A DNA stretch of 22,973 nt, from the IMG/VR virus record IMGVR_UViG_3300012013_000242, positions 1 through 22,973 of that record; one strand, given 5' to 3'. Source of the DNA: a virus. The notes below the pieces were generated by a model. The model did no database searches and was not told the DNA's origin. It saw only the letters and a list, made by a program, of their open reading frames with translations. Of the stretch, positions 6,040 through 21,099 are shown one piece after another (position 1 is the stretch's first letter; every line of letters starts with the position of its first letter). A program made the translations under genes and the position numbers.

Positions 6040-6074
6040 GTTAGGATCTTAACACCATAAAATTACCGTGTCAA
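6040..6074 (-). promoter_or_regulatory. Leftward promoter with overlapping operator (copy 2)
   Basis: Read leftward, a perfect TTGACA -35 (6069-6074), a 17-base spacer and a TAAGAT -10 (6046-6051). The -10 is embedded in GTTAAGATCCTAAC (6040-6053), identical to the copy at 1017. Predicted start near 6039 gives a ~33-base leader for the ERF gene. The -35 covers a possible GTG start of the divergent gene, which supports the later ATG (6101) for that gene. Confidence 0.85.
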
Positions 6075-10318: not shown

Positions 10319-10499
10319 CTTGCACCTCAACCGTTACCGTCTGAGACATGATCCTTTGTATCGAGAAGTGAGCGACTAGCGCCCTAGCGGATAACCTGCC
10401 AACCTCTTCCGGCGTTAAGTCTTTGTAGTTCGCTTTCTTAAGGTCAGAGAGAATGCTATCGATAAGGGCGATATCACGAAGGCTAATGTAGGTTTTCAT
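10308..10499 (-). CDS. Small hypothetical protein
   Basis: A 63-residue leftward protein starting MKTYISLRDIALIDSILSDL, with a central LTPEEVGRLSARALVAHFSIQR. It is helical, with no recognised family. GGAG 7 bases upstream supports the ATG at 10499. It overlaps the upstream gene by 17 bases. Coupling, not homology, is the main evidence that it is real. Confidence 0.65.
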   Translation of the reverse strand: MKTYISLRDIALIDSILSDLKKANYKDLTPEEVGRLSARALVAHFSIQRIMSQTVTVEVQDEN

Positions 10500-10959
10500 C
10501 GGTGACTCCAAACCATTGAGGAACGTTGCGGTTAGTCCAGTTGGCGAATCGACGTTTTTCTGCGCGATAGTAGGCTCGGTATGCTTCGACGGGATCGTTA
10601 CAGCGGTACTCGTCCGGCATAGCTTGAGGGAAATCGGTAAGACGAGTTACTAAGATTGGCGGCGGCTGTAGCGTTTCGATAACAAGCCTTGAAGCGTGCT
10701 GCTTTCCGTAACGGAATTTGTACTCGTCACATAAAGCGATAGCGTGATCGTAAAGCCAGAACCAGTTGCCTACGCTATCTCCCGCCCAGATAGTGCATGG
10801 ATGACGCGGGTGTGTAGGTTTGTACTTGGCAGGTTGTCCGAAGCGGTAAGCGACGGAACATAGCATCTGAGCTGACTCGAGCGGCATCTTTACGACGTGC
10901 TTATCGCATTGATACTGAGCGGCTAGCACTGGATCTTTGTCTAGTACGAAGATGTTCAT
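10483..10959 (-). CDS. Conserved phage protein, possible pyrimidine-dimer glycosylase-like
   Basis: A 158-residue protein beginning MNIFVLDKDPVLAAQYQCDK and continuing HVVKMPLESAQML. It has HPRHPCTIWAGDS, NWFWLYDHAIALCDEYKFRYGKQH and a C-terminal RRFANWTNRNVPQW. This family is common in phages. The N-terminal CDKHVVKM-x-LE resembles the catalytic start of T4 endonuclease V-type (Pyr_excise) glycosylases, which remove UV dimers, but the match is loose and many relatives are simply labelled hypothetical. The many aromatic and His residues suggest nucleotide or metal binding. It is coupled to the 65-residue gene by ATGA. Confidence 0.7.
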   Translation of the reverse strand: MNIFVLDKDPVLAAQYQCDKHVVKMPLESAQMLCSVAYRFGQPAKYKPTHPRHPCTIWAGDSVGNWFWLYDHAIALCDEYKFRYGKQHASRLVIETLQPPPILVTRLTDFPQAMPDEYRCNDPVEAYRAYYRAEKRRFANWTNRNVPQWFGVTDENLH

Positions 10960-11435: not shown

Positions 11436-12065
11436 ATGAGTTTTCAAGTCATGGCATGGGCGGTTAAGCAGCAGACCGCAAACGCGGGGCAGAAGCTAGT
11501 TCTTCTAATGCTCGCAAATCACACGAACTCACACACGGGACAATGCAATCCATCGCATAAGCTCTTAGCGGAAGAGTGTTCGATGGGGGTTTCGACCCTA
11601 AAGGGGCATCTTTCCGCCTTAGAGCAGGCGGGGTTTATCTCTGTTGTGCATAACTCGGTAGAAGGGGTTTCGCTTCCGAATTCTTATACGCTAAATGTTG
11701 AGGGGGTAGGTCAAAATCTGACGGGGGGTGAGTCAGAATCTGACCGGGGGGTGGGTCAGAATCTGGCTACAAACCTAGAAGATAAACCTATAAATAAACC
11801 TAAAGATATATATCCTGCAGAGTTCGAGCAGTTCTGGTCGCAGTACCCAAGAAAGCAAGGGAAGTACGCCGCCTTCAAGAGGTGGTCCGTTGTAACGCGA
11901 GACTCTCCGGCGGAGCTTCTGATAGATCGGGCGAGGGCTTATCAGATTGAAACGCTAGGGCGGGATATGCAGTACATCCTACTTGCGGAAACATGGCTAA
12001 ATAAACGAAGATTTTTAGACCGTCCGACGCAGCCGCGTCGTAGCTTAAACGCATTAGCGGGGTAA
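11436..12065 (+). CDS. Lambda-O-like replication initiator (HTH protein)
   Basis: A 209-residue protein. Residues ~1-75 are a winged-helix domain (MSFQVMAWAVKQ, LMLANHTN, CNPSHKLLAEECSMGVSTLK, HLSALEQAGFI), like HTH_36/replisome-organiser proteins. A low-complexity linker (GVGQNL, then again GVGQNL, about 92-115) is encoded by tandem DNA repeats. The C-terminal domain (EFEQFWSQYPRKQGKYAAFKRW, TWLNKRRFLD) is the type found in phage initiators that load helicase. The primase-helicase gene starts one base after its stop. The ATG has AAGGA 6 bases upstream, and the open frame before it is treated as leader. By analogy with lambda O it should bind the iterons in its own gene and open the AT-rich region next to them. 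Confidence 0.8.
   Translation: MSFQVMAWAVKQQTANAGQKLVLLMLANHTNSHTGQCNPSHKLLAEECSMGVSTLKGHLSALEQAGFISVVHNSVEGVSLPNSYTLNVEGVGQNLTGGESESDRGVGQNLATNLEDKPINKPKDIYPAEFEQFWSQYPRKQGKYAAFKRWSVVTRDSPAELLIDRARAYQIETLGRDMQYILLAETWLNKRRFLDRPTQPRRSLNALAG
11702..11767 (+). repeat. Three tandem iterons inside the initiator gene
   Basis: Three ~21-base units start at 11702, 11724 and 11747. Each has a run of five or more G, then TRRGTCARAATCTG[AG]C. The core GTCAGAATCTGAC is a 6-1-6 inverted repeat, perfect in unit 2. Periods are 22 and 23 bases, about two helical turns and not a multiple of three, so the repeat is kept at DNA level and is read in different frames by the gene. This is typical of initiator-binding iterons. 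Confidence 0.8.
11771..11814. other. AT-rich segment with AAACCTA repeats, candidate origin unwinding element
   Basis: Directly after the iterons lies an AT-rich stretch with AAACCTA at 11771, 11784 and 11796 (spacing 13 and 12), ending in GATATATATCC. Iterons followed by AT-rich 12-13-base direct repeats is the layout of lambda ori and of many iteron origins. The origin call is inferred from this arrangement within an initiator gene. Confidence 0.65.
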
Positions 12066-13814: not shown

Positions 13815-13836
13815 ATAGGTTAGAATCCTAACCTAT
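13815..13836. promoter_or_regulatory. Operator palindrome covering the HTH-gene start codon (copy 4)
   Basis: A perfect inverted repeat with 9-base arms (ATAGGTTAG and CTAACCTAT) and a 4-base AATC centre. Its core GTTAGAATCCTAAC belongs to the same family as the three promoter operators. The final AT is the first two bases of the ATG at 13835. TAGAAT at 13821-13826 is a good -10, which would place the transcript start at or next to the ATG. No convincing -35 was found. Confidence 0.75.
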
Positions 13837-14041
13837 GAAGATACGCCCGGAAGAGTTTAGAGAGTGGAGGCGCCGCCTTGATATTTCGCAGTACGAGGCG
13901 GCGGAACTGCTTCATTTCCGGACTCGAACGAGTGTTAGTCACTTAGAGACTGGCCGAGTCAAGATAACGAGAAGGCTATGGGATCTATGCTTAAGGATCG
14001 AGAAGGAGCGGCGAATCTTTCACAGTTCTACGATGCCTTAG
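13835..14041 (+). CDS. Small XRE-type HTH regulator, probably self-controlled
   Basis: A 68-residue Cro/cI-like protein with a helix-turn-helix at residues ~17-38 (ISQYEAAELLHFRTRTSVSH) followed by LETGRVKITRRLWDLC. It would bind DNA as a dimer, in keeping with a palindromic operator. There is no Shine-Dalgarno: the operator palindrome runs into the ATG, and a -10 lies 9 bases upstream, so a leaderless message like that of lambda cI from PRM is plausible. Its 3' end overlaps the methyltransferase gene by 64 bases. It is the only full-length HTH regulator here apart from the initiator, which makes it the prime candidate to bind all four operator copies. Confidence 0.8.
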   Translation: MKIRPEEFREWRRRLDISQYEAAELLHFRTRTSVSHLETGRVKITRRLWDLCLRIEKERRIFHSSTMP

Positions 14042-14643
14042 CGCCGCAGTACGATGCTTTGTATGTAGACACAATCCATTATGTCGAAGACGAATTAGTA
14101 TGGCAGTTAAGCGAGTCTATCGGTCCGCTTGGTAAGGTTCTCAGCGTCGGCTGCGGGACGGGAAACGATATTTCGATCTTAAGGCTTGAGCCAGAAAAGT
14201 CTGTGTGCGTAGACTTTTCGAAAAACATGCTGCGCATCGCCCGGAAAAAGTACCCAGAGTACAGATTCGAACTGCACGATGTAACTCAGTCCCCGTTTCG
14301 GTACAACGCAGATACGGTTGTCGCGTTATACGGGGTTGTAAATTACATTGGAATGCGAGCCTTTGTAAGGCAGGTGTTTCAGTCCGGCGCGACTAAGTTT
14401 ATTGCAATTCTGTATGCGAACGGCTATACGCCGTACAACATTGACAATATCCCGCATCGATTCGGGGTGTCTGATTTAATCGAGCTACGACAGGCTTTCC
14501 CGTCGCTTCGGGTAAGCGGGCTGTCGTATTTTATGGATAGCAACGACATCCCGTTCGAGCCTCTGCTTACGGCGCAAAAGCTTATGACAATGCAGCCGTC
14601 TAGTCTTTCAGGGTGCAAGTATTGGGTTTGTTATAGCACATGA
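13978..14643 (+). CDS. Class I SAM-dependent methyltransferase
   Basis: A 221-residue Rossmann-fold methyltransferase. YDALAPQYDALY at the start is typical of small-molecule or glycan methyltransferases. VLSVGCGTGNDISIL (about residues 54-68) is SAM motif I. CVDFSKNMLRIARKKYP follows as motif II, then FELHDVTQSPF. Substrate is unknown. In this position, ahead of glycosyltransferase-like and DNA methyltransferase genes, it may modify a nucleobase or sugar. The start is ambiguous between 13978 and 13987. It overlaps the HTH gene by 64 bases. Confidence 0.8.
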   Translation: MGSMLKDREGAANLSQFYDALAPQYDALYVDTIHYVEDELVWQLSESIGPLGKVLSVGCGTGNDISILRLEPEKSVCVDFSKNMLRIARKKYPEYRFELHDVTQSPFRYNADTVVALYGVVNYIGMRAFVRQVFQSGATKFIAILYANGYTPYNIDNIPHRFGVSDLIELRQAFPSLRVSGLSYFMDSNDIPFEPLLTAQKLMTMQPSSLSGCKYWVCYST

Positions 14644-14650
14644 GGTGCAA

Positions 14651-15208
14651 ATGACTCGGATAATTATTCGAGCCGTCCCAGAGAGGGCGGAGTTTATTGA
14701 CTATCTAAAAGAAAAGCTGCCGTCTGCCGAATGGTGCTTTGATCAGAAAAGAAACGCGATGGATACGTTTCTTCGGGCGCTCGATATGGCCGGAGACGAT
14801 CCGGTTGTACACATGGAAGAGGATGTAATTCTTTGCGAGTCTTTTCTATCGGATCTCGAGTCGGCAATCGCAAAGCGACCTACAACGTTAATTCAGTTCT
14901 TTTCGATGCGGAGTCAAGACCTAACGGTTGGGAGCCGCCTTGATCGCAACTTCCTAATGGGGCAGTGCTTCTATCTCCCCGCTTCGTATTCAAAGCAGAT
15001 TAGAGCCTACTATGAGACATGGCCTAACAGACGCAGCCATCCTACGGGGTTAGACACGATGGTGGGGGACTGGCTTAAAAGCAGGAAAGAAGCGTACTGG
15101 ATCAAGGTTCCGTCTCTAGTTAATCATAGGCAATGCAAGTCTGTAATCGATCCAAGAAGGTCTAGCAAGCGGCAGTCCCTTACATTCCGAGAATCTAATG
15201 CTCTATAA
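14651..15208 (+). CDS. Glycosyltransferase-like phage protein
   Basis: A 185-residue protein starting MTRIIIRAVPERAEFIDYL. It has a GT-A-like acidic metal site, VVHMEEDVILCESFLSDLE (about residues 52-70), which resembles the ExD/DxD of GT25/GT2-type enzymes. Other parts typical of a phage family are LIQFFSMRSQDL, MGQCFYLPASYS, HPTGLDTMVGDWL and PSLVNHR. The DxD-like motif suggests transfer of a sugar from an NDP-sugar; acceptor unknown. GAGG 5 bases before ATG 14651 decides against a GTG two codons earlier. It sits between two methyltransferase genes, overlapping the second by 11 bases. Confidence 0.7.
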   Translation: MTRIIIRAVPERAEFIDYLKEKLPSAEWCFDQKRNAMDTFLRALDMAGDDPVVHMEEDVILCESFLSDLESAIAKRPTTLIQFFSMRSQDLTVGSRLDRNFLMGQCFYLPASYSKQIRAYYETWPNRRSHPTGLDTMVGDWLKSRKEAYWIKVPSLVNHRQCKSVIDPRRSSKRQSLTFRESNAL

Positions 15209-15788
15209 CTCTGCTATAAGAAATGGGACTGTTCAGGAATCGGCGTGGCCTACCGAAAGGTTTGAGCATTACGGATCAATCGGAAAACGATGGAATATCG
15301 TCACAGAACCGCCGCCGAATGAGCTTTATCAATGCGATGTTATCTATTGTGAGCCGCCATTTCCTGCTGGCTTAAAAGTATTTGATCGGCGGGCGGGCGA
15401 ATCAACTAAAGACTACACCGTATTCGCGGAAGCTTTTGCAGAGGTTTGGCGAACGATTTCAGTGCCTAAATATGCAATCGTCAATCATCGTTTGCTTACA
15501 AAGTTACCTGCGCCATCAGGGATCGTTGTTGTAAAACTAAACAACGCTAAAGAGCGCCTTGCCTATTGGAATGCGCCGAAGCCAGAAGAGGATCAGACGA
15601 ACCTATCTATTTGCAAATGGCTAGGCAAGAGCTTTACTAGGCTAGGTGATATTACCTGCGGATACGGAATGCCGGTCCTGCACTTTGTACGCTCGCGTCC
15701 GGGGAATACGTTTTTTGCAAGCGACTATGACCCGCACTGTATTACCGTCCTAAGCCGCCTAACAAAAGAGGCGATCCCGAATGGTTAA
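15198..15788 (+). CDS. Beta-class DNA methyltransferase-like protein
   Basis: A 196-residue protein with the catalytic motif IYCEPPF at residues 49-55, a D/N/S-PP-Y/F variant with Glu in the first position. The SAM-binding motif LGDITCGYGMPVLHF comes later, at 149-163, followed by FFASDYDPHCI. Catalytic motif before SAM motif is the beta-class order, as in N6-adenine or N4-cytosine methyltransferases. The small size leaves little room for a target recognition domain, so specificity may come from a partner. It overlaps the glycosyltransferase-like gene by 11 bases and the IbrA-like gene by 8. Confidence 0.7.
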   Translation: MLYNSAIRNGTVQESAWPTERFEHYGSIGKRWNIVTEPPPNELYQCDVIYCEPPFPAGLKVFDRRAGESTKDYTVFAEAFAEVWRTISVPKYAIVNHRLLTKLPAPSGIVVVKLNNAKERLAYWNAPKPEEDQTNLSICKWLGKSFTRLGDITCGYGMPVLHFVRSRPGNTFFASDYDPHCITVLSRLTKEAIPNG

Positions 15789-16953
15789 GAAGCTTGTTAA
15801 TGCAAAGACGGACATGATGCGCCTCTATACAGGCGTAAACGTATTTGATGCTGCATTAGCGAGGATAGAGAGGCTATTTAACGAGTTTCCGACTATTGTT
15901 GTTGGTGTGAGTGGCGGGAAAGATTCGACAGTAGTGTTTGAGCTTGCGCTTATCGTAGCCAGAAAGCTAAACAGGCTTCCTCTTAAAATTATGTTTATCG
16001 ATCAAGAGGCGGAATGGCAAGCGACGGTTGAACAGATGCGTTACATGATGACGCATCCTGATGTAGAGCCGTATTGGTATCAGATTCCGATGCAGATACT
16101 TAATGCCACATCTACAACAGACTCATGGATGCATTGCTGGGACCCAGCGGAAGAGCATCGCTGGATGCGCGAGAAAGAGCCGTATGCGATTAAGGAAAAC
16201 ATCTTCGGTACGCGGCGGTTTGCGGAGCTATTTACCGCGATCCTTGAGAAGCAATGGGAGGGGCCGGTTGGTTATCTCGGCGGCGTAAGGACGGAAGAAA
16301 GCCCAGCGAGAAAAATCGGATTGGTGTGGAACTTGACCTACAAAGACATAACTTGGGGCAAGATTAATAACAAGGCGAAGAAAAAATTTACCTTCTATCC
16401 AATCTATGACTGGTCGTTTTCCGACGTATGGAAGGCGATTCATGCGAACAAGTGGCCGTATAACAGCATTTACGATGTACAGCATCGTTATGGGATAGCG
16501 CCTAAAGATATGCGAGTCTCGAACGTGCATCACGAGACGGCAGTTAGTCACTTGTTCTATATGCAAGAAGCGGAGCCGGAGACGTATGTAAAGCTCACCA
16601 ACCGAATTGGTGGTGTTGATATGTCAGGGAAGCTAGGGAAAGAATACTTTATTAAAGAGCTTCCGTTTATGTTTCAGGACTGGCAGGAATACAGGGAGTT
16701 CCTGCTCGATAAGCTCATAACTAACCCCGAATGGAAGGCGAACTTTCGAAAAACCTTCGACCGGCAGGACAAGTATTACGCCGAAACCGAAGGCGAGAAG
16801 TTATGGCGGATGCATATCAATGCAATCTTAACGAATGATTTCGCCGGTACAAAGCTCGGCAACTTCGAGAGAAGCCCAACGAGGCGATTCGACTATAAAC
16901 TCAAGCGAGAGAAAGAGCGCAATGTGGCAAACGGAACTACAGAAAGCGTTTGA
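15781..16953 (+). CDS. IbrA-like PAPS-reductase-family protein (DUF3440)
   Basis: A 390-residue member of the PP-loop ATP-pyrophosphatase superfamily. VVGVSGGKDSTVVFELAL (residues 40-57) is the PP-loop, and IMFIDQEAEWQATVE and GYLGGVRTEESPARK follow. The long C-terminal part with FYPIYDWSFSDVWKAI and YNSIYDVQHRYGI fits DUF3440, the family of IbrA. Classic relatives move sulfur or activate substrates with ATP. The next gene encodes a ParB-like IbrB relative, so the ibrA-ibrB pair known from E. coli prophages is preserved. The classic reductase CxxC-type site is not evident. Its target is unknown; a nucleic-acid thiolation or adenylation step is a guess. Confidence 0.85.
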   Translation: MVKKLVNAKTDMMRLYTGVNVFDAALARIERLFNEFPTIVVGVSGGKDSTVVFELALIVARKLNRLPLKIMFIDQEAEWQATVEQMRYMMTHPDVEPYWYQIPMQILNATSTTDSWMHCWDPAEEHRWMREKEPYAIKENIFGTRRFAELFTAILEKQWEGPVGYLGGVRTEESPARKIGLVWNLTYKDITWGKINNKAKKKFTFYPIYDWSFSDVWKAIHANKWPYNSIYDVQHRYGIAPKDMRVSNVHHETAVSHLFYMQEAEPETYVKLTNRIGGVDMSGKLGKEYFIKELPFMFQDWQEYREFLLDKLITNPEWKANFRKTFDRQDKYYAETEGEKLWRMHINAILTNDFAGTKLGNFERSPTRRFDYKLKREKERNVANGTTESV

Positions 16954-17584
16954 AGACGCCGAGGACAAACGTGCGTTTATCGAAGAGGCTCGAGATATCC
17001 TTCATGCCTTAAGCGCGTGTAAGTCTCAGCCTATCGACCGGGTGCGGTGGGTGCCTGTCGATAAGGTCTTCGCAAACGATTACAACCCGAACTCTGTGGC
17101 AACGAATGAGATGAGGTTATTGCACACCTCTATCTCTCACGATGGGTATACGCAGCCCGTCGTTACGATCTATGACGCAGAGGCGGATCGGTACGTTATC
17201 GTTGACGGCTTTCATCGCTATACGATTATGCGGCGCTACAACGACATCCGTGAGACGACAGGCGGGATGCTACCTATCGTCGTTATCTCTAAGAGCATTG
17301 CGGAGCGTATGGCGTCTACTGTGCGGCATAACCGAGCTAGGGGGAAGCACTCCGTAGCGGGTATGGCGAACATCGTCTTCGGGATGCTTGATAACGGGGT
17401 ATCGGACTCTGAAATCTGCAAGGCTCTGGGGTTAGAGAGTGAAGAGCTTGTAAGGCTTAAGCACGTTACAGGGTTTAGCAAGCTATTTGAAAACGTCGAT
17501 TACAAGCTCGCTTGGGAGACTAAGCGGATGTTGCAACTAAGGAAAGAATATGAAGCTTCAAAAGCTCAAGCTAGCGCAGATTAA
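16922..17584 (+). CDS. IbrB-like ParB-domain protein
   Basis: A 220-residue ParB/sulfiredoxin-superfamily protein. The ParB fold covers about residues 40-120: VRWVPVDKVFANDYNPN, HTSISHDGYTQPVVTI, IVDGFHRYTIM (in place of the usual GxHR box), and ASTVRHNRARGKHS. An HTH-like part follows (NGVSDSEICKALGLESEELVRLKHV). Recent work shows that several ParB-fold proteins are CTPases or nucleotide-using enzymes. It overlaps the IbrA-like gene by 32 bases. I start at the ATG 16922, which has a purine-rich AGAGAAAGAG upstream, not at 16835 deep inside the upstream gene. Confidence 0.82.
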   Translation: MWQTELQKAFEDAEDKRAFIEEARDILHALSACKSQPIDRVRWVPVDKVFANDYNPNSVATNEMRLLHTSISHDGYTQPVVTIYDAEADRYVIVDGFHRYTIMRRYNDIRETTGGMLPIVVISKSIAERMASTVRHNRARGKHSVAGMANIVFGMLDNGVSDSEICKALGLESEELVRLKHVTGFSKLFENVDYKLAWETKRMLQLRKEYEASKAQASAD

Positions 17585-18125
17585 ACCGTACTGGCGCAAC
17601 CCGCGAAACAACATTACAGCGGTTGAGGCTGTAAAGCGGTCGATCGAGGAGTACGGCTACAACTCGCCGATTCTAGTTGACGAGAACTTCGTTGTAATCG
17701 CGGGGCATACAAGGCTCTTAGCACTGCGCGATCTCGGGTGGAAGGAGGCTGAAGTCGGCGTCCTGTCGCTATCGGAAGAGAAGGCTAAGGCTTACCGAAT
17801 CGCTGATAACAAGTCGGCGGAGCTTGCGACATGGGATCAGGAAAAGCTCTTGCAGGAGCTTCGAGAGATTACGAAAATCGAGACGCTTGACGTATTTTTT
17901 CCGGGCGTAGACCTATCAGAAATGATCTCTGAGGATGTAGGCGCGTCATCGTTTAGCTATCCTTCGGAAGAGAAGATTCAGGCGGCGGCGAACAATGTCG
18001 AGACGCATTTCGAGGAAGCTAACGCAGGCTATCGTGAAGGGCTATATGAAGTTATCTGCCCGCACTGTAGCGAGTCGCACTTTATCAACAAATCAGAAGT
18101 GCTTGGGATGAAGCCGGATGTTTGA
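17550..18125 (+). CDS. Second ParB-like protein with C-terminal CxxC
   Basis: A 191-residue protein whose first ~95 residues are a ParB domain of the kind often fused to phage adenine methyltransferases: YWRNPRNNITAVEAVKRSIE, PILVDENFVVIAGHTRLLAL (40-59) and YRIADNKSAELATWD. Here no methyltransferase follows. The remainder is acidic and ends in YEVICPHCSESHF, a CxxC-x3-H motif (C170, C173) that may bind zinc. The beta-class methyltransferase is a separate gene upstream, so the two may work as a split pair. AAGGA precedes the ATG. It overlaps the upstream ParB gene by 35 bases. Confidence 0.82.
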   Translation: MKLQKLKLAQIKPYWRNPRNNITAVEAVKRSIEEYGYNSPILVDENFVVIAGHTRLLALRDLGWKEAEVGVLSLSEEKAKAYRIADNKSAELATWDQEKLLQELREITKIETLDVFFPGVDLSEMISEDVGASSFSYPSEEKIQAAANNVETHFEEANAGYREGLYEVICPHCSESHFINKSEVLGMKPDV

Positions 18126-18438
18126 TTTTACGATCGAGAGTGCGAGGGAGTTTATCGAAGGGCACGAATGGACGTTTGCCAAGTCGATGCCAAAGATCCC
18201 GCATTGGTACGTCGTAAAAGAGCAGTGCAGGAGCGGGTTCGAGTTTGAGGCGTTCGTCGCCTTGATTCGAAAAGAGGGCTATGCGAAGCGCTGGTTTCGC
18301 AGAGAATTTATTTATCTTGATATTGATGGGTGGTCATATTGGACAATGGGCGCACCGATACACGAGACGACAATTATCAACAGAGCGAAGAATTCCGGCA
18401 CCGCTGTGAAGTTAGATGGGTCCTTCAAACAATTGTAG
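18118..18438 (+). CDS. Conserved phage protein of unknown function
   Basis: A 106-residue protein rich in aromatics: HEWTFAKSMPKIPHWYVVKE, a FEAFVALIRKEGY helix, then FIYLDIDGWSYWTMGAPIHE followed by TTIINRA. The YLDIDGxxYWTMG..TTIINR pattern looks like a phage-associated family I have seen without a function. It overlaps the ParB gene by 8 bases and the next gene by up to 109 bases. Confidence 0.7.
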   Translation: MFDFTIESAREFIEGHEWTFAKSMPKIPHWYVVKEQCRSGFEFEAFVALIRKEGYAKRWFRREFIYLDIDGWSYWTMGAPIHETTIINRAKNSGTAVKLDGSFKQL

Positions 18439-18620
18439 ATAAGGATCGGTCTGCGCGTGACTGGTTTAAATCGTATCTCGAACTTGTAGAAAAGGCTCGC
18501 GGAATAGCAGCAAAAGATGCGCTACACCGCGATACCGTTAAACAATGGAAGCTTGGGAACCGTGGGCAGGAGCGCGACTGGAGGCCCGAAGCAGAGCCTC
18601 CTCGAGCGGTACGCGATTAA
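18330..18620 (+). CDS. Conserved phage protein, start uncertain
   Basis: Up to 96 residues from a GTG at 18330. The conserved part is EEFRHRCEVRWVL (from about residue 20), then YLELVEKARGIAAKDALHR and QWKLGNRGQERDW. This RCEVRW...VEKxRG...GNRG..DWR pattern occurs in a small phage family of unknown function. No ATG is in frame before the conserved part and no good ribosome site is seen. A TTG at 18339 is another option. The conserved part begins inside the previous gene, so a long out-of-frame overlap is real whichever start is used. Its 3' end overlaps the convergent cyclotransferase gene by 83 bases. Confidence 0.6.
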   Translation: MVILDNGRTDTRDDNYQQSEEFRHRCEVRWVLQTIVDKDRSARDWFKSYLELVEKARGIAAKDALHRDTVKQWKLGNRGQERDWRPEAEPPRAVRD

Positions 18621-18987
18621 GCCCGAAGTCCTGATAGCCCTCGCGGATGATATCGAAGTACGGGCGGGATGGTTTTGAGTAACCGGTGCGGTTCATCTTG
18701 TAGGCCATCGCCGAGACGATCTTTCCGCTAGAGAGTGCGACAAAGAAGCTTTGTTGCTTGTATAGCGTTGGCGCACCTTCATAGGCGTCTAGAGCTTGCT
18801 CGTCGTCTTCGCTAATGTCCCAGACGGCTACCGGGACGCGGAAACCTGCGGCGGGTTCTATGTCGGCGACATTCCGGAAAACGAGACGCCAGTTAAGGAT
18901 GTGACCGGTGTCTAGAACCTTAGCGTCTGGGCAACGGCGGGACATTTGAGCCATATTCATGTTCGAACCATAAGCTGCGTACAACAT
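18538..18987 (-). CDS. Gamma-glutamylcyclotransferase-like protein (AIG2/GGCT)
   Basis: A 149-residue GGCT-fold protein starting MLYAAYGSNMNMAQMSRRC, with the diagnostic YGSNM loop, PVAVWDISEDDEQALDAYEG carrying likely catalytic E70, and the following YKQQSFFVAL. These enzymes release 5-oxoproline from gamma-glutamyl peptides or amines. It lies in an operon with an amidoligase, a pairing reported for mobile elements and phages and read as making and breaking gamma-glutamyl-type bonds. GGAG 8 bases before the ATG at 18987 sets the start, two bases below the DUF6876 stop. The last ~25 residues overlap a convergent gene and may not be conserved. Confidence 0.85.
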   Translation of the reverse strand: MLYAAYGSNMNMAQMSRRCPDAKVLDTGHILNWRLVFRNVADIEPAAGFRVPVAVWDISEDDEQALDAYEGAPTLYKQQSFFVALSSGKIVSAMAYKMNRTGYSKPSRPYFDIIREGYQDFGLNRVPLEEALLRASSRAPAHGSQASIV

Positions 18988-18989
18988 TA

Positions 18990-19349
18990 TCAATACTCCG
19001 AAGGGACGATGAGGACGTTATTCTGAAGGTAAAACTTCCAAGTACCTTCTGGGCAATCCGTAAAATCGATCCGCTTGTACATGAGGTAACTTCCGTTGCC
19101 GTCGTGCATCTTAAAGTCTGCAGCAGACCCTTTGACAACTAGCTCGACCACAACGAAAGGCTCTTCTTTGACCAGATGCCTAACGGAACCAACGATATCA
19201 AGAAACCAGAACGCCTCGGCGTGTTTTGCAAAGAAAAGCACCCCGTCCGAGAAGCGCATTCCGGTAAAATGACGGTAATACTTCTCTGTCGAGAAGAACT
19301 GCGCAAGGTTTGATTGAAGCTCTGTTGGTTGCATAACGACTGCTCTCAT
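18990..19349 (-). CDS. DUF6876 family protein
   Basis: A 119-residue protein that matches DUF6876 as I know it: LAQFFSTEKYYRH, FSDGVLFFAKHAEAFWFLD, FVVVELVV, the DGNGS turn, IDFTDCP and a terminal NNVLIVPSEY. Members occur on plasmids and phages and have no known activity. GGAG 6 bases upstream fixes the start. It lies between amidoligase and cyclotransferase genes, so it may be a substrate or partner of that system. Confidence 0.82.
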   Translation of the reverse strand: MRAVVMQPTELQSNLAQFFSTEKYYRHFTGMRFSDGVLFFAKHAEAFWFLDIVGSVRHLVKEEPFVVVELVVKGSAADFKMHDGNGSYLMYKRIDFTDCPEGTWKFYLQNNVLIVPSEY

Positions 19350-19367
19350 GATGACTCCTTGGGTTGA

Positions 19368-20339
19368 TTAGACTGAAGCGAAGCGGGCTTGACGGCTGTT
19401 AAAGTATTCGACCATAGACTGATCGAGGTTGGCGTAGATGTTGTCGGCGGTCGATCCGACTGTGTCTTTCCACCATTTGCAGAACGAATCGTTAAGCTGG
19501 CGGGTTCCGTTGACATAGAGCGAATCGAGTTGCTCCGTGCTAGCGAAGATCTGCCGACCGTCCGAGAGGCGGATTTCCCACTTCCGACCGCCTGCGTAAC
19601 GAACCGCTGCGCCGTTGCGCTCGAGTTGTTCGCGGATCTCACCGTAGGGGCGGTTGGTTCTGCGGGTATACGAGGTCGAGGCGGAGATCTCTGCGGGACC
19701 GACGGACGCCTCGATGAACTTCTCGAGGAAGAGAACCCAGTTAACGATCTTGTCGGGATCGGTCGTGCCGGAGTGCTGGCGGAACTCGATAGTGCCGTAG
19801 CGGGTAAGGCTGCAGAGGTTAAGCTTCTGATAACGGTCGTTGGCGTAGATCGCCAACTCGCGAGCTTCTTGAACGCGAGCGGCGAGCGCCCTGCTTACGA
19901 GCGCGTTGTTTACCGTCTTGCAGAACCGGTTATTGCGGCGGCTTGCCGGGAAGATCGAATCGAACCAGCCTTCGTACTTGATGAAGCGCGACACGACCGA
20001 CTTGATCTGATCGGCGGTCATGCCGTCCCAGCTAACATGAACGTGAAGCCCGCACCGACGGTCTACTTTGATTCCGGGGATGGCGTTAACAACGCTCGCG
20101 ACCTTGCGAAGCTCTTCGATACCTTGCTCACCACTAAGCGGCGGTGATACCAGCTCGCCACCAATACCGTTGTAGTCCGTTACCGACCCATCCGTAACCA
20201 GCTTCCAACGGTTCTGAAAGACCTGATGAGTGTATCCCGCGTTAAACGCTGAGACTCCCGCTGCGGTAAGAGCATCTACTACGGTGTTGATGCCTACGCC
20301 GGTGAACTCGATCTCTACCCCGAATTTGAAGCCGTTCAT
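19368..20339 (-). CDS. Amidoligase-family protein (Amidoligase_2)
   Basis: A 323-residue protein of the glutamine-synthetase-like amidoligase family, which joins a carboxylate to an amine using ATP. Motifs: FGVEIEFTG (residues 6-14), GGELVSPPL (60-68), RRCGLHVHV (94-102) and YGTIEFRQHSGT (181-192). The Glu, His and Arg residues in these correspond to metal- and nucleotide-binding positions of the GS fold. The C-terminal ~100 residues (TNRPYGEIREQLERNG, WEIRLSDGRQIFAS) are a separate region. First gene of the operon, with GGAG before the ATG and a promoter bearing the shared operator. Substrate unknown; peptide or protein modification has been proposed for relatives. Confidence 0.85.
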   Translation of the reverse strand: MNGFKFGVEIEFTGVGINTVVDALTAAGVSAFNAGYTHQVFQNRWKLVTDGSVTDYNGIGGELVSPPLSGEQGIEELRKVASVVNAIPGIKVDRRCGLHVHVSWDGMTADQIKSVVSRFIKYEGWFDSIFPASRRNNRFCKTVNNALVSRALAARVQEARELAIYANDRYQKLNLCSLTRYGTIEFRQHSGTTDPDKIVNWVLFLEKFIEASVGPAEISASTSYTRRTNRPYGEIREQLERNGAAVRYAGGRKWEIRLSDGRQIFASTEQLDSLYVNGTRQLNDSFCKWWKDTVGSTADNIYANLDQSMVEYFNSRQARFASV

Positions 20340-20370
20340 CTGAATCTCCGTTTAGTTAAAAGCTGGTATA

Positions 20371-20404
20371 GTTAGAATCTTAACAGGGAAAAATAGCCTG
20401 TCAA
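20371..20404 (-). promoter_or_regulatory. Leftward promoter with overlapping operator (copy 3)
   Basis: Read leftward, a perfect TTGACA (20399-20404), a 16-base spacer and TAAGAT (20377-20382), the latter within GTTAAGATTCTAAC (20371-20384). It differs from copies 1 and 2 at one base in the centre. The transcript would start about 31 bases before the amidoligase gene. Confidence 0.85.
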
Positions 20405-20462
20405 CACAAAAATGAAGAAAAAACACAAAATAACCGAAATATATTTATATTAAACAGCTTTA

Positions 20463-20493
20463 ACCGATAGGCATCCTTTATCGGTCGTTTTTT
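20463..20493 (+). terminator. Rho-independent terminator just before terminase genes
   Basis: ACCGATA (20463-20469) and TATCGGT (20479-20485) form a perfect 7-base stem, with possible G-U closing pairs inside, followed by CG and six T (20488-20493). It faces rightward; the other strand has no T-run in the right place. It lies 22 bases before the TerS start, downstream of a 60-base stretch that is 78% AT and holds TATATT -10-like boxes without a clear -35. Confidence 0.75.
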
Positions 20494-20514
20494 GCGAAAG
20501 GTGAGAGGTTTAAC

Positions 20515-21099
20515 ATGACAAGGCTATCGCCAGACAGATGGCTAGAGATACGGAACCTGTTCGTTCACGGGATCGTTGATGAGAGCGGGCGGCGGGAATA
20601 CCTAAGCGTTGACGCGATCGGGAAACGCGAGGGGGTTAACCCTTCGACGATTCAGAAGCGGTCAAGGGAAGAGAACTGGGTCGGCGCTAGGGCGGACTTC
20701 GAGCGGCGGTTACGGGATCAGGTCGATCGGGAGCGGCGCAAGGAGTTAGCAAAGGAAGCGTCTGAGTTCGACATTACATCGTTGCGGCTCGCTAAGGGAT
20801 TGCAGAACGAGATCGCGCAGATCATTATTGAGTCGCAGGAAAACCGGAGGCGGTACAAAGAGGCGCTATTAAACGGGCGGCGCCCAGACCCCGAGCTTCG
20901 CTTGCTTGCTCCGGCAACCTTAAACTCGCTTGCTTCGGCTTTAAGCGTTGCGCAGAAGGTGGGCCGACTGGCAATGGGAGAATCAACGGAAAACGCGAAT
21001 GTCAACGTTAACGATCAAAGAGAACTCGAAGAGGCTCGTAGAATTATTGACGAACTGGCCAGAGGGAAGCGCGAAGACGGGCCTCCTGTCGTACATTAA
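20515..21099 (+). CDS. Terminase small subunit-like protein
   Basis: A 194-residue protein immediately before the large terminase gene. Residues ~30-55 (SVDAIGKREGVNPSTIQKRS then REENW) are an HTH of the kind used by phage TerS to recognise the packaging site. A long charged helical region follows (RRLRDQVDRERRKELAKEAS), then a C-terminal part with AKGLQNEIAQIIIESQENRR. TerS oligomerises and recruits TerL to viral DNA. AGAGG 7 bases upstream supports the start. Its 3' end overlaps the TerL gene by about 101 bases. The assignment rests on position, length and HTH. Confidence 0.8.
   Translation: MTRLSPDRWLEIRNLFVHGIVDESGRREYLSVDAIGKREGVNPSTIQKRSREENWVGARADFERRLRDQVDRERRKELAKEASEFDITSLRLAKGLQNEIAQIIIESQENRRRYKEALLNGRRPDPELRLLAPATLNSLASALSVAQKVGRLAMGESTENANVNVNDQRELEEARRIIDELARGKREDGPPVVH

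Follow-up and report, generated by a model that had tools for sequence, protein, structure and literature searches.

Organization of the locus

The window, that is, the whole stretch of DNA analysed here, spans 22,973 bases and constitutes one virus record of IMG/VR, in the linear class. Three packed genes on its minus strand lie behind one promoter, in the order Amidoligase_2, DUF6876 and gamma-glutamyl cyclotransferase. The first (19368-20339) encodes a 323-residue, long-form Amidoligase_2 protein, a putative GS-fold carboxylate-amine ligase (PF12224, E 6.9e-36, 124.8 bits against a cut-off of 22), and is the only Amidoligase_2 gene in the window. The second (18990-19349) encodes a DUF6876 protein of 119 aa, a probable passenger (PF21781, E 1.3e-27, 96.6 bits against 27). 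The third was listed as an ORF for a gamma-glutamyl cyclotransferase (GGCT/AIG2-like) with a TTG start (18538-18993; PF06094, E 3.1e-10, 41.1 bits against 22.8). Each match exceeds its family cut-off, and the three assignments made in an earlier note on this DNA are thereby borne out. The ligase and DUF6876 genes are separated by 18 nt. An ATG at 18987, which gives a cyclotransferase of 149 aa (18538-18987; PF06094; phrog_2520, E 3.8e-32), sits 2 nt past the DUF6876 stop, and the TTG at 18993 is therefore probably unused. The residue called E70 in the earlier note is counted from this ATG and is E72 in the TTG numbering used below. No terminator was found 3' of the cyclotransferase gene. The ORFs, their spacing, the promoter and a palindrome confirm the proposed three-gene arrangement: the operon is real and its operator is shared, and the two enzymes represent a minimal version of a gene set already known from phages.

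Promoter and shared operator

The operon promoter (TTGACA-16-TAAGAT, 20377-20404, minus strand, reading from 20404 to 20377) is the sole sigma-70-like match within positions 18000-21000; taken alone the match is weak, because shuffles average 2.0 matches. Its -10 box lies under a palindromic operator, GTTAGAATCTTAAC (20371-20384, no strand). The overlying palindrome, GTTARRATYYTAAC, has exact copies in the window only at 1017, 6040, 13819 and 20371; against these four, each of 300 dinucleotide shuffles of the window had none. These sites precede the trio operon, the Erf/RecE recombination operon, a MazG-like gene and a gene for a 68-residue HTH protein. At the recombination operon the copy at 6040-6053 covers the -10 box of a TTGACA-17-TAAGAT promoter, as in the trio, and the exact copies at 20371 and 6040 substantiate the claim that the two operons have an operator in common. 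The recombination proteins match Erf (phrog_155, E 7e-36) and a RecE-like family (phrog_7655, E 1e-26). Regarding the other two copies, one (1017-1030) stands before the MazG-like gene (679-1002; PF03819, E 4.6e-6), and the other (13819-13832) ends 2 nt 5' of the ATG of the HTH gene (13835-14041, plus strand; PF13560, E 1.9e-6); no consensus promoter was found at either. The small HTH protein is probably a repressor that binds the four operators. From the co-regulation with the recombination operon it is reasonable to infer early action of the trio operon, as the earlier note had proposed.

Among 2.56 Mb of other fetched loci, GTTARRATYYTAAC has one copy, immediately 5' of the L008 ligase gene. 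L008 is the nearest relative with this region; its terminase is 88% identical to that of the window and its sequence stops inside the ligase gene. Five viral-contig stretches resembling the promoter-operator were treated as chance; none has the full operator, tblastn of 26 window proteins against them gave no match, and they contain one weak small-family profile match, in L423. Of 34 relatives, 17 have another palindrome, GTTKAC-N4-GTMAAC (two mismatches at most), across the -35 box of their ligase promoter, among them L090, L095, L096, L102, L111 and L126. A further copy is found roughly 100 nt 5' of the replication genes in five of nine mapped loci (L095, L096, L102, L093 and L097, the first two being near-duplicates). 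In thirteen loci 27 sites were counted where shuffles average 1.2; because a ligase-promoter copy was the criterion for picking these loci, 13 of the sites are present by choice and 14 are independent of selection. Possibly the circuit in these relatives is the same, with a changed repressor specificity.

The two enzymes

The predicted structure of the ligase (pLDDT 88) has YbdK as its best Foldseek match (E 2.5e-4), followed by glutamine synthetases and plant glutamate-cysteine ligase. Superposition gave VIA Z 13.0 with glutamine synthetase (rmsd 3.3, 199 residues aligned) and VIA Z 11.9 with YbdK (rmsd 3.9, 210 aligned). YbdK, the glutamine synthetases and glutamate-cysteine ligase all act on glutamate by activating its gamma-carboxylate, and the structural matches also include GS-fold enzymes that gamma-glutamylate amines (GmaS, 7cqn; 1-naphthylamine GS, 8wwu). 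Thirteen residues are invariant in 29 of 29 ligases: G7, E9, E11, W45, D50, E62, H99, H101, S133, R134, E185, R187 and H189. Model and alignment together give a GS-like fold with conserved candidate metal/nucleotide residues, of which E9/E11 and E185/R187 presumably correspond to the metal ligands and active-site arginine of GS.

The cyclotransferase profile (A3) matches human GGCT (2pn7) at E 1.9e-14, with the YGSN loop and the catalytic Glu aligned, the latter to the human position occupied by Q in entry 3cry; by this alignment, human GGCT (2pn7, 2i5t) would belong to the same family as the phage protein. AIG2-like/GGACT chains are matched at E only about 0.05, and because human GGCT matches far better, the phage protein looks nearer to the gamma-glutamyl-amino-acid type. 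All 28 cyclotransferases compared share Y8, G9, N11, D69, E72 and G73. Neither alignment contains inactivating substitutions, so the intact active sites assumed in the earlier note hold, and since the active-site residues are invariant, the ligase model matches the GS fold and the cyclotransferase has its catalytic Glu aligned, both enzymes look active. The cyclotransferase reaction releases 5-oxoproline and requires a glutamyl group with a free alpha-amine; the natural substrate would therefore be a gamma-glutamyl cap and not the internal glutamate of a stem peptide. Among 50,697 records of annotated phages, 261 have a match to the ligase and 50 to the cyclotransferase.

Conservation of the ligase-cyclotransferase pair

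Relatedness of the terminase or of the DnaB/primase (helicase) was used to gather 160 loci. The ligase is present in 38 of these, the cyclotransferase in 36, and the two together in 34. In the six unpaired loci (four with the ligase only, two with the cyclotransferase only) the contig ends 0-321 nt away on the side of the missing partner. Both genes were counted in loci with profiles built from this group (A2 and A3), which may miss distant partners. When viral contigs were scanned with the enzymes themselves, a ligase accompanied the cyclotransferase in 61 of the best 80 loci and a cyclotransferase accompanied the ligase in 59 of the best 80, always on the same strand. Every viral scan is limited to its best 80 loci, so the samples lean toward close relatives; the scans overlap, with some contigs in several sets, and clustered numbers are therefore also given: after clustering at 80% identity the partner is present in 40 of 44 (cyclotransferase-drawn) and 44 of 60 (ligase-drawn). 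The pair belongs to a conserved block with the order replication genes, cyclotransferase/ligase (reverse strand), ParB, PAPS reductase, ParB and terminase, an arrangement kept by most of nine mapped loci.

A GGCT of this type is absent in 21 of the best 80 ligase-centred loci, 17 of which have at least 1500 nt of room downstream. Another PF06094 protein is present in five of these 17 records. A GATase as replacement for the putative eraser was rejected, GATase_6 being found in none of the 17. From these counts it follows that the eraser is not obligatory. In three of the five, L381, L400 and L402, that protein is a cyclotransferase of the VFVYGSLK type, encoded just downstream of the ligase and belonging to a different PF06094 subfamily (the Pfam scan covered L381 and L402), which suggests that the eraser has been replaced by that subfamily. 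The conserved unit is the ligase-cyclotransferase pair, DUF6876 excluded.

A small protein family behind short-form ligases

The ligases of relatives occur in a long form of 331-362 residues, with the cyclotransferase directly behind, and in a short form of 274-302 residues followed by an ORF of 77-99 residues. The latter ORFs belong to a family of about 75 residues, with 77 ORFs across 75 loci; for 73 of these ORFs a ligase gene lies no more than 600 nt away on the same strand. Examples are L046:991-1224, L051:3058-3288 and L409:5717-5950, with 70 or more further loci, and the family is also present in a Porphyromonas phage (L006) and a fecal phage (L005). It occurs in 29 of 38 clusters of short-form ligases versus 10 of 57 long-form clusters (Fisher p 1e-8). 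This complementary occurrence had raised the idea that the small protein is a domain fused into the long ligases, which was rejected on profile comparison, where no homology with the C-terminus of the long form was found (probabilities of 0.2 and 0.6 percent). Pfam gave nothing above family cut-off for seven members, and PHROG nothing below E 0.05 for eight. The family is previously undescribed and accompanies the short-form ligases in relatives. The window has no member; its ligase is of the long form, and DUF6876 occupies that position. Overall, the place between the two pair genes holds nothing, the protein of about 75 residues or DUF6876.

DUF6876

The DUF6876 family has 12 invariant columns across 66 sequences and was sampled in 91 loci, namely the best 80 of 147 viral matches and 11 genome contigs. 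Among the sampled loci, only the window has DUF6876 between ligase and cyclotransferase. The co-occurrence census suggested in the earlier note went against the three families forming a set: DUF6876 is present in none of the 160 loci drawn by the two enzymes (best 80 each), and this cyclotransferase in none of the 91 DUF6876 loci. On this two-way census DUF6876 is unlikely to be a dedicated partner of the pair, and that reading was rejected. A larger, divergent Amidoligase_2 lies on the same stretch, a few kb away and not adjacent, in 13 of the 91 loci (L169, L175, L182, L190, L197-L199, L201, L205, L211, L215, L226 and L227). No constant neighbour of DUF6876 was found among 65 loci, the commonest being a pyrimidine-dimer-glycosylase-like protein (14 of 65). 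A protein of this kind (phrog_624), relatives of which adjoin DUF6876 elsewhere, is encoded in the window at 10483-10959.

In the fold comparison the sole standout was 2r41 (Z 7.9, rmsd 3.1, 87 residues aligned; next Z 3.5), and because this is itself a protein of unknown function, the fold gives no function for DUF6876. Its sequence profile had no match to PDB chains at E up to 1, and in the literature collection searched DUF6876 is not mentioned by name. As far as can be judged from gene neighbourhoods, DUF6876 is probably a common, independent phage accessory gene that slipped between the two genes as a passenger.

Relation to known systems

Pairs of ligase and cyclotransferase recur in many aquatic and gut phages. 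Passages of PMC5498523, PMC11945000 and PMC11318856 assign the pair genes putative roles in wall modification, host metabolism or defence, in agreement with the earlier note, which held that the pairing is known and its phage role not established; the passages on the pair that the literature search returned contain no functional test of it. A search of the defence database gave no match for the ligase, DUF6876 or the cyclotransferase. Like the cassette for which peptidoglycan modification has been proposed in phages, the window has a GS-type amidoligase and a cyclotransferase in a replication-side gene block; unlike it, the window shows just these two enzymes, with their own promoter and operator and with DUF6876 in between. 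Of the extras of the cassette, GATase_6 and a second Amidoligase_2 were not found in the 22,973-base fragment, nor was an ATP-grasp enzyme among the 29 proteins scanned, GATase families beyond GATase_6 being covered solely by Pfam scans of these proteins. The gut-phage pairs of Ca. Heliusvirales and of Terrisporobacter phage TPDSL_ph1 are similar in having the ligase and then GGCT on one strand, just upstream of the terminase in gut-phage loci L416 and L417. In contrast to the window, their ligase is divergent, and TPDSL_ph1 has two annotated amidoligases.

In butirosin biosynthesis, the ligase BtrJ adds a gamma-glutamyl group that the AIG2-like cyclotransferase BtrG removes. The likeness to the phage pair would be an analogy of logic only, BtrJ being an ATP-grasp enzyme and the phage ligase predicted to have the GS fold.

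Proposed function

A GS/YbdK-like ligase adjoins an enzyme that cleaves gamma-glutamyl caps, and the simplest reading is therefore that the ligase caps an amine and the cyclotransferase uncaps it. The GS-fold ligase would spend ATP on joining gamma-glutamate through an amide bond to an amine, of a small molecule or a protein, and the neighbouring cyclotransferase would strip the group as 5-oxoproline. Together they would form a writer/eraser or protect/deprotect pair, expressed early beside the recombination genes and probably under repressor control, with DUF6876 as a separate accessory gene. We judge this reading to stand at about an even chance. If both enzymes were made simultaneously, their action would be futile unless substrates or timing differ. 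The 17 ligase-centred loci that have space downstream yet no GGCT of this type also count against this reading.

The published proposal of wall modification fares less well, and we regard it as unlikely. In this view the stem peptides of peptidoglycan would receive an amine or amino acid from the ligase and would be trimmed by the cyclotransferase, so that superinfection is blocked. In stem peptides the amine of D-Glu is acylated by L-Ala, at odds with the free alpha-amine that the cyclotransferase needs, and the ATP-grasp and GATase_6 partners were not found in the 22,973-base fragment. What speaks for it is the published peptidoglycan modification cassette of RIO1-like, phiEco32 and LUZ24-like phages, a larger set with both enzymes, for which passages of PMC5498523, PMC11945000 and PMC10580990 advance this function as a hypothesis.

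We consider auxiliary metabolism similarly improbable, in which the pair would feed the supply of nucleotides and amino acids by recycling nitrogen or gamma-glutamyl compounds, or would make an amine or polyamine conjugate. The amine gamma-glutamylating enzymes among the structural matches of the ligase (7cqn, 8wwu) are consistent with it, but the operator common with the recombination genes points to takeover and not to bulk supply, and no transporter or pathway gene was recognised next to the operon. A nitrogen-metabolism role has been put forward for Phage-ZRK32, which has a ligase, a cyclotransferase, a glutamine amidotransferase and a glutathione synthase (PMC10945688).

A broader version of the writer/eraser reading, which we hold to be quite doubtful, is that many phages carry a reversible gamma-glutamylation switch, an early, repressor-controlled writer and eraser that would tag a host amine or protein, with the exchangeable middle position setting target or timing. 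Least probable is a three-part system with DUF6876 as substrate or adaptor, as the earlier note had suggested: DUF6876 is tightly spaced between both genes and 13 of its loci have another, larger Amidoligase_2 on the same stretch, but those ligases are divergent and not adjacent, DUF6876 has no constant neighbour, and both directions of the census are empty.

The value of the locus is that it presents the pair reduced to two enzymes under one identifiable operator, with DUF6876 dropped from the likely partners. It suggests looking for gamma-glutamyl groups whose alpha-amine is free, and the wall hypothesis thereby becomes testable against its rivals.

Other features of the window

On the terminase side, positions 15781-18125 encode a PAPS-reductase/DUF3440 protein and then two ParB-like proteins, conserved in relatives. 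These genes have weak DndC/BrxP similarity, and we take the combination of PAPS-reductase and ParB-like genes to resemble IbrA/IbrB pairs. Methyltransferase and glucosyltransferase-like genes (13978-15208) lie directly behind the HTH gene. Inside a replication gene, three 21-nt direct repeats (11700-11765) form a possible origin.
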